34,029 nt of DNA, taken from Flavobacteriales bacterium. Its GTDB lineage: Bacteria > Bacteroidota > Bacteroidia > Flavobacteriales > BACL11. Shown here piece by piece: positions 1,134-34,029 of the stretch (the stretch's first letter is position 1; each line of letters begins with the position of its first letter). The position numbers and the translations under genes are program-made. The notes beneath the pieces were generated by a model. It saw only the letters and a list, made by a program, of their open reading frames with translations, was not told the DNA's origin and made no database searches. The stretch spans positions 67,796 through 101,824 of the forward strand of contig PAUF01000017.1 of NCBI GenBank assembly GCA_002712715.1, read 5' to 3'.

Positions 1134-4116
1134 TTGAAACTGTTCCTTTTATTGGATCTATTCCATCACGTAATTTAATTACATAAAAATATGTGCCATC
1201 TCTTAATGGGTTACCATTCATATTATTCCCATCCCATGGGTCAAAATATCCAACAGATTTAAAAACTAAATTACCATATCTGCCATATACCTTAATCTCT
1301 GAATCTAGAAACAGAAAGGCATCTTCAATATTCCATAAATCATTGACACCATCATCATTAGGAGAAAAAACATTAGGAACACATTCAGGATTTAATAAGG
1401 ATATATTAAAAGCTGTATCAACAATGCAAAAATTATCATCTGTAACTGTAACCGAATATAATCCGGGGTAAAGGAAAATACTGATAGGATTAAACGTTTC
1501 TCCATTACTCCACTCATAACTATAACTTCCAACTCCACCACTAGCCACGACTTCTAACTCTAAATCTAAATTAGAAATATCACAATCTATTAAATCTTCA
1601 GAAGGATTTAGCGACAAAATTATAGGATCTACAATAACCTCTTGCAAAACTTCACATTCATTTTTATCAGTCACCCAAACTCTATGTAAACCATTACATA
1701 TATTTCCATGAGCAGTTATTTCTCCATTATCCCATAAATATGTGTATGGCTCGCTCCCCCACAACAAACTATCAGGATATACTGTTGTAGTTAATTCATC
1801 CACAATACCTCCCATAGGAAAATAAAAACTAACATCTATACTATCAATAACTTCACAATTATTCTCATCAACTACTGAAACGTAATGAACCCCTTGACAT
1901 AAATTAAAAATTTCACTCTCATTCTCTCCAAATAAAATATCCATATTCGAATTATACCATTGATAAGAAAAAGGTGGTTGAGCTGTAGAGGATGTTACTA
2001 TAACCTCTCCCATATTCAGAGGATTAGTATAATAGTCAGCTTCAACTTCTAAAATATATTCATTAATTGTAAAGTTAACAGAAATAGTATCACCGCATGA
2101 ATCAGTAACCATTATCCACTGTAAACCACCCTCTAAATCATTAGAAATTGAATCAGTAGAACCATTACTCCAGATATAAGAATACGGTGGTGTTCCACCA
2201 GCGACTACTACACTGGCAGTTCCAGCAATATTACAAGTAGCTTGTATAATATTAACACTAATTTCAAGTGAATCTGGCTCAGAAATCAATATTGTAGATT
2301 CTAAAAAACATCCATTTTCATCGGAGACAGATAATGAATGTAATCCAGACTGTACTACAATTTGATAGTTAGTATCTGCAAAATTATTATTCCATACCAA
2401 ATCATAACTCCCTGTTCCACCTGATATATTAACAGAAACTAATGTAATAGCATCACGACAAAAAAGAGGATTTTGAAAACCATAGAACTCTGTAAAAATT
2501 GAATCCGGTTCATATAAATATACTGAATCAGTATAAAAACAACCTAAACTATCAGTAATGTGAATAATATATAATCCAGATGATATAGCAAATAGAGAAT
2601 CTGGACTTCCAGAACCAGACAACCAATTATAACTAAGTGGAGGATTGCCTCCAAGAATATTAATAGAAATACTTCCATCTGAGAAACCATTACATGAAGG
2701 TGGATATAAAGACTCATTAATTGATACATCTGAATTTTCACCAACTATATAATCCTCAGTGAACATACAACCTAAACTATCATATAAAACTAATGTATAT
2801 ATTCCTGAATACAAGGAATCTGGATTTACGCCACCCCATTGTATATTATATGGGCTTATTCCACCAAAAATAGTGTCAATAGATAAAGTTCCTGAATTAT
2901 CTCCAAAACATATTGCATTAGTTGAAGTTACATTTGTATAAATAGTATTAGGTGCTGAAAGAAAGTAAGATATAGTATCTAAACATTTATTAATTGTATC
3001 ATATATTTGCAAACTATAATTTCCAGATCTAACATAAATAGAATCAGAATGACTAAATCCTAACCAATTATACTCTACTGTTTTATACCCTCCTATTATT
3101 TCATCAACAAAAAGCCATGTACTATCCTGCTCGCATATAATCGAAGGAGAATTAGAGATAATTAGTGAATAATTATTAGGTTCATGGATCAGTATATTAG
3201 TATCCAAAACACATCCAAATGAATCCTCAACTGACAAAGTGTAATAACCAAAATACAAACTATCAAACAACACATAATAAGGAAGATTCCCAGTAGAAAC
3301 ATTAATTGAAGATCCTGTTCTTTCTATAAATCTAATTGTATCATTAGATGAGTCAATTAAATAGTAATTATAATAATTCCCTGAAACATATCTCTTACCA
3401 TCTTTAATATTAATATAAAATGAACCCGTATTAGTTCCTATACAATTTACTGAATCAATAAATAAAGAATCAACCCTTAGTTTATTAGGCTGAAAAATTA
3501 CAGAAGTATCTAATGTCAAAGCAATGGAATCAAAAGGCTGAAATATACATCCATTTGAATCAACAACATTGACAACATATTCTCCCGCGGAAAGATTATC
3601 TAATAAAGTATCATTTTGACCAGAAGATAAAAGATTTCCATTTTTATACCATAAGTAATTATAATATTCATCACCTGAACTTGGGATACCATCAGGATCA
3701 AATGGCACACCTCCTGAAACAACTTCTTTTAAACTTCCTGAAGAATCGCCATAACATTTCACATTCTGATGAGCTCTCTTTACAGAGTACAATGAACAAG
3801 GGGGGGTAACATCTAAGGTATCTGAGGGAATGAAATTATTATCATAAACTATAACTCTATAAGAAAAACACTCGAAAAATCCGATTGAATCCAAATTACT
3901 TCCAGAAGAATAACCAATCCAAACAAATGATTGATTATCAAAAAAATACCAGGAATAAAATGGTGTAACAGTATCAGTATCTATTTGTATATAACCTTGA
4001 GAATTATTACAATCGATTCCCTGAACATTAGTTGAAACTATATTTTGAGAAAATACACAAAATGGAATACAGATTAAACAAAATATAATAAAAAAATTTT
4101 TCACAATATTAATCAT
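1123..4116 (-). CDS. SprB-repeat surface protein with T9SS type B (CHU_C) sorting domain
   Basis: Large secreted protein of about 997 residues. It has an N-terminal signal peptide (KNFFIIFCLICIPFCVFSQ), then an array of SprB-like repeats of about 60-85 residues. The repeats are recognisable by GGxPPYxYxWSNG, then SGxYxxxVxDxxGC. The final 85 or so residues form a gliding-motility-associated C-terminal domain: VPNVFSPNDDGVNDLW, then YGRYGNLVF, FDPWDGN and DGTYFYVIKL. By family knowledge such proteins cross the outer membrane through the T9SS and act as surface adhesins or matrix proteins. A TTG at 4119 directly precedes the ATG chosen here. A GTG at 4104 would give the textbook signal peptide start MKNFFIIF. 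A perfect TATATTTG promoter element lies only 4 bp upstream of the ATG. The ligand is unknown. Confidence 0.9.
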   Translation of the reverse strand: MINIVKNFFIIFCLICIPFCVFSQNIVSTNVQGIDCNNSQGYIQIDTDTVTPFYSWYFFDNQSFVWIGYSSGSNLDSIGFFECFSYRVIVYDNNFIPSDTLDVTPPCSLYSVKRAHQNVKCYGDSSGSLKEVVSGGVPFDPDGIPSSGDEYYNYLWYKNGNLLSSGQNDTLLDNLSAGEYVVNVVDSNGCIFQPFDSIALTLDTSVIFQPNKLRVDSLFIDSVNCIGTNTGSFYINIKDGKRYVSGNYYNYYLIDSSNDTIRFIERTGSSINVSTGNLPYYVLFDSLYFGYYTLSVEDSFGCVLDTNILIHEPNNYSLIISNSPSIICEQDSTWLFVDEIIGGYKTVEYNWLGFSHSDSIYVRSGNYSLQIYDTINKCLDTISYFLSAPNTIYTNVTSTNAICFGDNSGTLSIDTIFGGISPYNIQWGGVNPDSLYSGIYTLVLYDSLGCMFTEDYIVGENSDVSINESLYPPSCNGFSDGSISINILGGNPPLSYNWLSGSGSPDSLFAISSGLYIIHITDSLGCFYTDSVYLYEPDSIFTEFYGFQNPLFCRDAITLVSVNISGGTGSYDLVWNNNFADTNYQIVVQSGLHSLSVSDENGCFLESTILISEPDSLEISVNIIQATCNIAGTASVVVAGGTPPYSYIWSNGSTDSISNDLEGGLQWIMVTDSCGDTISVNFTINEYILEVEADYYTNPLNMGEVIVTSSTAQPPFSYQWYNSNMDILFGENESEIFNLCQGVHYVSVVDENNCEVIDSIDVSFYFPMGGIVDELTTTVYPDSLLWGSEPYTYLWDNGEITAHGNICNGLHRVWVTDKNECEVLQEVIVDPIILSLNPSEDLIDCDISNLDLELEVVASGGVGSYSYEWSNGETFNPISIFLYPGLYSVTVTDDNFCIVDTAFNISLLNPECVPNVFSPNDDGVNDLWNIEDAFLFLDSEIKVYGRYGNLVFKSVGYFDPWDGNNMNGNPLRDGTYFYVIKLRDGIDPIKGTVSIIR

Positions 4117-32037: not shown

Positions 32038-32742
32038 ATGAAAAAACTACTATTGATTTTACTATGTGTGCCTTTGATTGGGATGGGGCAGGATTATTCT
32101 TCAATTAAAATATATTCAAATATGGAGTGTATATCAGGAAATTGTAAGAATGGAGAGGGAGCCTGTAAATTATATAAGCAAGATACTTATATAGGTAAAT
32201 ATGAAGGTACTTTTAAAAATAGTATACCTGATGGTAATGGTACTCTTACTTATTTCAATGGAGACAAATATGTTGGAGAATTTAAAAATCACCTTTCTGG
32301 CTATGGAACTTATACCCACCATAATGGAGATGTATATGTAGGAAGTTTTAAAGATTCAGATAGAAATGGAAATGGTAAACTTATTTTCAATAATGGAGAG
32401 ATATATGAAGGAGAATGGAAGGATGGTAAACGTAATGGTTTAGGTGTCCTTACGCTTCCTAATGGAGAAGTATATGAAGGAACATTTAAAAATGGTTTAG
32501 CTGATGGCAATGGCACTCTCATAAAAGGAGAAGGTCCAAACAAAGGAGATAAATATGTAGGTAAATGGAAAAATGGCAAGTTTGAAGGAATAGGAACGTA
32601 TTATTGGGCTAATGGAGCAAAATACGAGGGAGAATACAAAAAAGGCAGAAGAAATGGAATAGGTAAATTTACCCTACCTAATGGAAAAATAACAGAAGGA
32701 TTATGGGAAAACAGTAGGTTCATAGGAAAAGAAAAAAAATGA
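32038..32742 (+). CDS. secreted MORN-repeat protein
   Basis: A 234-residue protein with a signal peptide (MKKLLLILLCVPLIGMGQ). About eight MORN repeats of 22-23 residues follow, from near residue 54 to the end (for example YVGEFKN, GYGTYTHHNGD, YEGEWKDGKRNGLGVLTLPNG). Cys 31, 36 and 43 lie before the repeats. MORN arrays form elongated beta-hairpin stacks; in bacteria their role is mostly unknown. The gene ends by overlapping the next start (ATGA), so translation is coupled. The first 54 bp are nearly identical to the starts of the three following genes. Confidence 0.9.
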   Translation: MKKLLLILLCVPLIGMGQDYSSIKIYSNMECISGNCKNGEGACKLYKQDTYIGKYEGTFKNSIPDGNGTLTYFNGDKYVGEFKNHLSGYGTYTHHNGDVYVGSFKDSDRNGNGKLIFNNGEIYEGEWKDGKRNGLGVLTLPNGEVYEGTFKNGLADGNGTLIKGEGPNKGDKYVGKWKNGKFEGIGTYYWANGAKYEGEYKKGRRNGIGKFTLPNGKITEGLWENSRFIGKEKK

Positions 32743-33347
32743 AAAAACTACTATTAATTTTACTATGTGTGCCTTTGATTGGGTTTGGACAAACTGAATA
32801 TAAGAAAGAGTATTGGGATAATGGTCAATTAAAAGAAGAAGGAAGCTATATAGATGGTAAGAAGGAAGGTCCTTTTAAATGGTATCATGAAAATGGTCAA
32901 TTGAGATTAGAAGGAAACTTTAAAGAAAATACACTGGAAGGTCTTTGGAAACAGTATTATAAAAATGGTCAATTAGAATTTAAAGGAAACTATAAAGAAA
33001 ATAAAAGGGAAGGTCTTTGGAAAGAGTATCGTGAAAATGGTCAATTAAAATGGGAAAGAAACTTTAAAGATGATTATTTAGAAGGTTTTTGGAAATTGTA
33101 TTATTTAAATGGTCAATTACATAGGGAAGAAAACTATAAAGAAGATAAAAGGGAAGGTTCTTTTAAATTGTATTATAAAAATGGTCAATTAAAAAGGGAA
33201 TGTATCTATAAAGAAAATACACTGGAAGGTCTTTGGAAAGAGTATCATGAAAATGGTCAATTAGCATCGTATAAAAGCTATAAAGAAGGAGAACTAATTT
33301 CTAATAAATGTTGGGATGAAGAAGGAAACGAAATAGACTGCGAATAA
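32739..33347 (+). CDS. secreted MORN_2 (YwqK-like) repeat protein
   Basis: A 202-residue protein with a signal peptide (MKKLLLILLCVPLIGFGQ). It has seven repeats of the toxin-antitoxin YwqK/MORN_2 type (YYKNGQLEFKGNYKE, EGLWKEY). The AATGGTCAA codon triplet recurs at 32820, 32892, 32964, 33036, 33108, 33180 and 33252, a strict 72-bp (24-residue) period. The protein is very rich in Lys, Glu, Tyr and Asn and ends with a Cys-containing tail (NKCWDEEGNEIDCE). No catalytic domain is present. The annotated antitoxin link of the family does not imply a toxin here; none is adjacent. It overlaps the previous gene by 4 bp. Confidence 0.9.
   Translation: MKKLLLILLCVPLIGFGQTEYKKEYWDNGQLKEEGSYIDGKKEGPFKWYHENGQLRLEGNFKENTLEGLWKQYYKNGQLEFKGNYKENKREGLWKEYRENGQLKWERNFKDDYLEGFWKLYYLNGQLHREENYKEDKREGSFKLYYKNGQLKRECIYKENTLEGLWKEYHENGQLASYKSYKEGELISNKCWDEEGNEIDCE
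32820..33323 (+). repeat. seven-unit 72-bp tandem coding repeat
   Basis: Units begin with AATGGTCAATTA or a near variant at a fixed 72-bp spacing, and each encodes one 24-residue MORN_2 module. Units share long stretches (for example AAGAAAATACACTGGAAGG in two units). The identity is high enough for recombination between units. Confidence 0.85.
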
Positions 33348-33348
33348 T

Positions 33349-33786
33349 ATGAAAAAACTACTACTACTATTACTATGTGTGCCTTTGATGTTCTCTTGTG
33401 GGGAAGAAGAAGGTGAATCTAATAAGGAGAAATTACATAATACGGAGACAGAAAATTCAAGAATTGAAGTAGATGAATTAGGTGAAGTTTATTTAAGAAA
33501 TATTTCTAAGAATGAAAAATTTGAATTTACTGTATCTATATCTGTTAGTAATTGTATTAATCATGTTGAGAAGAGGAAAGAATATGGAAGCGAATTAGAA
33601 TATCAAAAATTTTATATCTTAAGACCTGGAGAACAACGATATTTAGGAAGTTTATGTAAGTTTGATGATGGAAATTTCGGTCTATCTAATGCTAATGCAT
33701 GGTATAGTAGATACAGAGATTGTAAACCATGTAATGACACCTCAAAAATTACTTATTCTGTAATGGGAGAGCTTAAGATAGAATAA
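33349..33786 (+). CDS. small lipoprotein of unknown function
   Basis: A 145-residue protein that begins MKKLLLLLLCVPLMFSCGEEE. The start is the same signal-peptide DNA as its neighbours, but it ends in a lipobox (LMFSC), so Cys 17 is probably lipidated. After an acidic linker the mature part is beta-rich (VYLRNISKNEKFEFTVSISVSNC, FYILRPGEQRYLGSL). It carries Cys residues in SNC, SLC and DCKPCND that could form disulfides. I recognise no domain. It starts 1 bp after the stop of the MORN_2 gene and is probably in the same transcript. Confidence 0.78.
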   Translation: MKKLLLLLLCVPLMFSCGEEEGESNKEKLHNTETENSRIEVDELGEVYLRNISKNEKFEFTVSISVSNCINHVEKRKEYGSELEYQKFYILRPGEQRYLGSLCKFDDGNFGLSNANAWYSRYRDCKPCNDTSKITYSVMGELKIE

Positions 33787-33818
33787 ATTGAAATCCTTTA
33801 TAACTTAAAATAAATACT

Positions 33819-34029
33819 ATGAAAAAATTACTATTGATTTTACTATGTGTGCCTTTGATTGGGTTTGGGCAAACTGAATATAAGAAAGAGTATTATGATA
33901 ATGGTCAATTAAAAGAAGAAGGAAGGTCTTTGGAAATTGTATTATGATAATGGTCAATTAAAAAAAGAAGGAAGGTATAAAGATGGTAAGAAGGAAGGTC
34001 TTTAGAAATGGTATTATTCAAATGGTCAA
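33819..34029 (+). pseudogene. frameshifted MORN_2 (YwqK-like) gene, runs off the window
   Basis: It starts with the same signal-peptide DNA as the gene at 32739, and the first 105 bp are almost identical. The start frame (42 codons) ends at TGA 33945-33947. The MORN_2 reading continues in another frame from 33922 (EGLWKLYYDNGQLKKEGRYK), then meets TAG at 34003-34005 where a Trp codon TGG is expected, and resumes as KWYYSNGQ. Spacing of AATGGTCAA is 49 bp (33900 to 33949) instead of 72, so 23 bp are missing; the next interval (33949 to 34021) is 72 again. It has both a frameshift and a nonsense change. Confidence 0.85.
33965..33999 (+). repeat. 12-bp direct repeat pair with 23-bp offset
   Basis: AAGAAGGAAGGT occurs at 33965-33976 and again at 33988-33999, a 23-bp offset. 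The preceding unit keeps only one copy (33916-33927) and lacks exactly 23 bp. The gene at 32739 has a 10-bp version of the same pair at 32836-32845 and 32859-32868. Confidence 0.85.

Follow-up and report, generated by a model that had tools for sequence, protein, structure and literature searches.

A MORN_2 gene at a contig end, probably broken by a deletion between short direct repeats

Introduction

How did one repeat unit of a MORN_2 gene come to be 23 bp short, and is the loss, seen at the very end of an assembled contig, a real one? The question arises in a window of 34,029 nucleotides, the whole stretch of DNA analysed here (C17:67796-101824), whose last base is also the last base of a 101,824-bp contig. 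The source genome is a Flavobacteriales-like draft of 18 contigs and 1.55 Mb that is 91% complete. An earlier note on this DNA had proposed that 23 bp were deleted between two copies of a 12-bp direct repeat. Replication slippage is an established route, independent of RecA, by which DNA between short direct repeats that lie close together is deleted, for example in E. coli (PMC5426353, PMC7063769).

Results

The region 32038-33880 contains four consecutive genes: a MORN gene, a MORN_2 gene, a gene for an unrelated 145-aa putative lipoprotein and a broken MORN_2 gene. A near-identical 45-bp leader starts all four (36-44 of 45 bases identical), while the mature parts differ. The intact MORN_2 gene served as the yardstick for the broken one. 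Its match to PF07661 reaches 112.1 bits, above the curated cut-off of 29.6, which makes it a member of the MORN_2 family. Against NCBIfam its sole match is to NF033566 (LIC20035 family adhesin), at 67.5 of 250 bits and thus far under the cut-off. The broken gene retains a single PF07661 unit that scores just below the same Pfam cut-off (29.3 versus 29.6 bits).

Repeat units were marked by the AATGGTCAA motif, and intervals were measured between its occurrences. In the intact gene all six intervals are 72 bp, while the broken gene has one of 49 bp followed by one of 72 bp; the spacing thus bears out the earlier claim of a first interval of 49 bp instead of 72 (Table 1). The 12-mer AAGAAGGAAGGT is found once in the short unit and twice in the next one, at an offset of exactly 23 bp, and the coordinates and arithmetic first given for these copies are right. 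It occurs once more in the intact paralogue, at 32859, and is absent from the opposite strand of the window.

Table 1 Features of the broken MORN_2 gene and its intact neighbour (positions in the window)
Feature	Position	Strand	Basis or remark
Neighbouring MORN_2 gene, intact (202 aa), with seven unit motifs 72 bp apart	32739..33347	+	PF07661 8e-34; spacing
Slip-prone arrangement in paralogue unit 1: AAGAAGGAAG twice (32836, 32859), 10 bp, offset 23	32836..32868	+	
Broken MORN_2 gene, truncated 42-aa frame with signal-peptide-like leader	33819..33947	+	ends at TGA 33945-33947
Shortened repeat unit, 49 bp	33900..33948	+	motif spacing; 23-bp gap versus paralogue
AAGAAGGAAGGT, lone copy remaining at the putative deletion junction	33916..33927	+	
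AAGAAGGAAGGT, first copy of the intact next unit, E-G-R frame	33965..33976	+	
AAGAAGGAAGGT, second copy of the intact next unit, +23 bp, K-K-E-G frame	33988..33999	+	
Second lesion of the broken gene: TAG at a usual-Trp position	34003..34005	+	paralogue comparison
End of assembled contig (G000:C17, base 101824)	34029..34029	.	

The frame opened by the ATG at 33819 runs for 42 residues before it meets its TGA, so the frame effect ascribed to the deletion was correctly described. Past the junction, MORN_2 sequence continues in another frame, KKEGLWKLYYDNGQLKKEGRYKDGKKEGL, up to the TAG. The counterpart of this TAG in the intact paralogue is TGG (Trp) in four of the six complete units and TTT in the other two. 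The TAG comes in addition to the frameshift, and the broken gene therefore carries two independent lesions: the 23-bp deletion is not the only one. With an independent stop as well as a deletion, the broken MORN_2 gene is probably a pseudogene.

Aligned to its paralogue, the broken gene shows a single gap of exactly 23 bp, located at AAGAAGGAAGGT. The first 60 bases of the two genes agree at 57 positions, and the second unit of the broken gene matches paralogue unit 1 at 63 of 72. When the final 230 bp are compared with themselves at an offset of 23, the sole run of at least 5 bp is the exact 12-mer. We enumerated all deletions of 1-60 bp within the intact next unit, which yield 1,730 distinct products. 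Only one of these has a junction homology of at least 8 bp, namely the product with the 12-bp homology and the 23-bp offset, and this homology is beyond what chance would give. The same enumeration of paralogue unit 1 returns one such product, with a homology of 10 bp and again an offset of 23, and in the remaining paralogue units no deletion product has a junction homology of 10 bp or more. The marks of a deletion between short direct repeats are thus present, with one copy at the junction (33916), two in the next unit and a 10-bp pair in paralogue unit 1, the parent being represented by proxy. Since the high-homology product is unique, the gap against the paralogue is exactly 23 bp and an origin by duplication is unsupported (see below), pairing of the two AAGAAGGAAGGT copies very probably caused the loss; together with the leader match, the unique homology and the single gap make it the economical account. 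Because paralogue unit 1 has the same out-of-frame arrangement at 10 bp, the arrangement itself is probably older than the loss.

The size of the loss is less firmly set. The same mispairing could also have joined the first 12-mer of one unit with the second of a later unit; 23+72n bp would then be lost, with an identical structure as the outcome. Neighbouring units are near-identical where this matters (26 of 27 on the left; 37 of 42 at an offset of 72). Moreover, the right-hand portion of the short unit agrees with paralogue unit 1 at 15 of 21 positions and with other units at up to 17 of 21, and since it fits unit 1 no better than the others, the size of the loss is not fixed. However, the simplest event is enough, and slippage favours closer copies, a proximity effect noted in the literature (PMC5426353, PMC7063769). 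We regard the larger loss as a less likely variant, one that is a sub-case of the favoured explanation and overlaps with it in probability.

To place the short unit among related genes, we searched 398 genomes of the order with a AATGGTCAA-type motif pattern for intervals of 43-71 bp. Five matches were obtained, one of which is the broken gene; no other 49-bp interval was found in these genomes, a count whose denominator is limited by the strictness of the motif. Within the family, the 17 other matching intervals, six of them in the gene's own paralogue, are all 72 bp, and 72 bp is therefore the likely ancestral unit length, judging from this spacing. A PF07661 scan of 52 family genomes returned the match at the junction in a 30-aa frame, whereas all other listed matches sit in frames of at least 118 aa with no stop inside the match. 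Broken MORN_2 members are thus rare. They do occur: in one relative (L094, G044; 1501-1826, minus strand), a MORN_2 array is closed by a TGA at a Trp codon and continues after it, away from the contig end. In another relative (L027), a contig likewise ends within the start of such a MORN_2 gene.

No same-genus genome was found among the genomes compared, and the best MORN_2 relatives over most of the query are at most 47% identical. A broader scan of genome contigs gave distant relatives only, with none among the viral contigs. The 145-aa putative lipoprotein has matches in relatives mainly via the shared leader. Consequently, the genomes compared offer no orthologous locus against which the break could be read.

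Both lesions fall within the last ~130 bp of the 101.8-kb contig, and the assembly cuts the gene off inside its repeat array. The contig stops 102 bp past the junction, 82 bp past the TGA and 24 bp past the TAG. One possible explanation is that the terminal ~130 bp derive from a chimeric or error-bearing read, through in-vitro slippage in amplification, or from a low-coverage assembly of mixed strains, and that the cellular gene is intact. Besides the closeness of the contig end, a search of the rest of the genome bin found no continuation of the array or the gene, the two lesions lie within ~60 bp of sequence although the window's list of open reading frames showed no further broken gene, and the 49-bp interval is seen in no other family member. 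However, several lesions are common in pseudogenes, and the leader and the second unit, with its 63 of 72 matches to paralogue unit 1, are otherwise well conserved. Furthermore, a k-mer assembly with k >12 cannot join 12-bp repeats unless there are reads that hold the junction. For this last reason a true pseudogene is favoured over an edge artefact, which we consider unlikely though well worth keeping in mind, and the lesion is likely to be present in the DNA of the cell. Lying within the contig's final 130 bases, the break is best taken as provisional at the level of reads.

Alternatively, the 49-bp unit might be a partial duplication, in which the second copy of one unit slipped with the first copy of the next and 49 bp were gained. 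The distance between those copies is indeed 49 bp, and identity at an offset of 49 is 37 of 38. A gain of 49 bp requires at least 49 matching bases, however, whereas this identity ends after 38 bp and falls to 5 of 11 in the 11 bp just upstream. In addition, the short unit directly follows the leader, as paralogue unit 1 does, and no 12-mer stands ahead of it in the broken gene. A 49-bp tandem duplication is accordingly unsupported, and we hold it to be very improbable.

The least credible reading is a contingency (phase-variation) switch, an out-of-frame repeat kept to turn the gene off in part of the population: the paralogue does have an out-of-frame repeat at the corresponding position (10 bp at an offset of 23), but among 81 MORN_2-type open reading frames the offset of 23 is seen only in this paralogue, and the independent TAG means that a change of frame alone does not set the gene on or off. 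Out-of-frame direct repeats of at least 10 bp within 71 bp were also counted in these 81 open reading frames (76 kb) and compared with synonymous-codon shuffles. We observed 16 against 12.3 +- 3.4 expected, a chance-level count without excess, and so there is no sign of a designed switch. It is equally hard to believe that the MORN_2 genes of the cluster keep a deletion-prone out-of-frame repeat and that natural populations mix the 49- and 72-bp forms. A general slippage hotspot in MORN_2 genes was likewise rejected, as out-of-frame repeats showed no enrichment, first in 33 and then in 81 open reading frames.

Discussion

Together, our results make it reasonably probable that mispairing removed 23 bp, or 23 bp plus whole 72-bp units, from a MORN_2 gene that has a signal-peptide-like leader and stands in a cluster of small genes resembling one another, that this gene also acquired a TAG, and that it is now a pseudogene. 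The earlier note had called the deletion "fully explained" and the observed sequence "precisely" predicted. Pairing between the two 12-bp copies is well supported, but these words are too strong: the parent lies outside the window, losses of 23+72n bp are equivalent, there is a second stop, and the contig ends close by. In the same way, the repeats, the interval and the gap can indeed be read from the window, whereas the event cannot be called reconstructed from it, since the parent allele lies outside and the paralogue and the next unit act as stand-ins.

We then propose a model for the loss. Two out-of-frame AAGAAGGAAGGT copies, 11 bp apart within one repeat unit, would mispair during replication. 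The mispairing would remove 23 bp, or 23 bp plus whole 72-bp units, from the MORN_2 gene. The deletion would shift the frame, and translation would stop after 42 residues. We infer that this took place in a living cell and that the mechanism was slippage, not single-strand annealing.

The event is probably an ordinary slippage deletion of a known kind. As in the replication slippage of E. coli, one copy and the intervening sequence are lost, the homology is short and the copies are close. There is no difference in kind; the copies here are a product of how a repeat protein is encoded, and they are read in different frames as E-G-R and K-K-E-G. The gain and loss of units in tandem-repeat protein genes also involve a repeat array and slippage. 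However, the frame survives changes by whole units, whereas the loss seen here, 23 of 72 bp, is out of register and disrupts it. If real, the locus would be a clean textbook case of repeat units rich in lysine, glutamate and glycine that carry out-of-frame homologies able to break genes. It also carries a caution: one sequence can yield a well-argued account of a mutation, but both lesions here lie at the edge of an assembly.

The intact neighbour, by its PF07661 match, resembles the MORN_2 repeat proteins of Bacteroidota. Elsewhere, certain members of the MORN_2 family carry the annotation of YwqK-type antitoxin. The ywqJ-ywqK genes of Bacillus subtilis are a putative pair of polymorphic toxin and antitoxin (PMC8321402). 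No toxin that could act as a partner was found at the MORN_2 locus studied here. Within the cluster, the MORN and MORN_2 genes share the four bases ATGA (32739-32742), an overlap that suggests translational coupling of the two.
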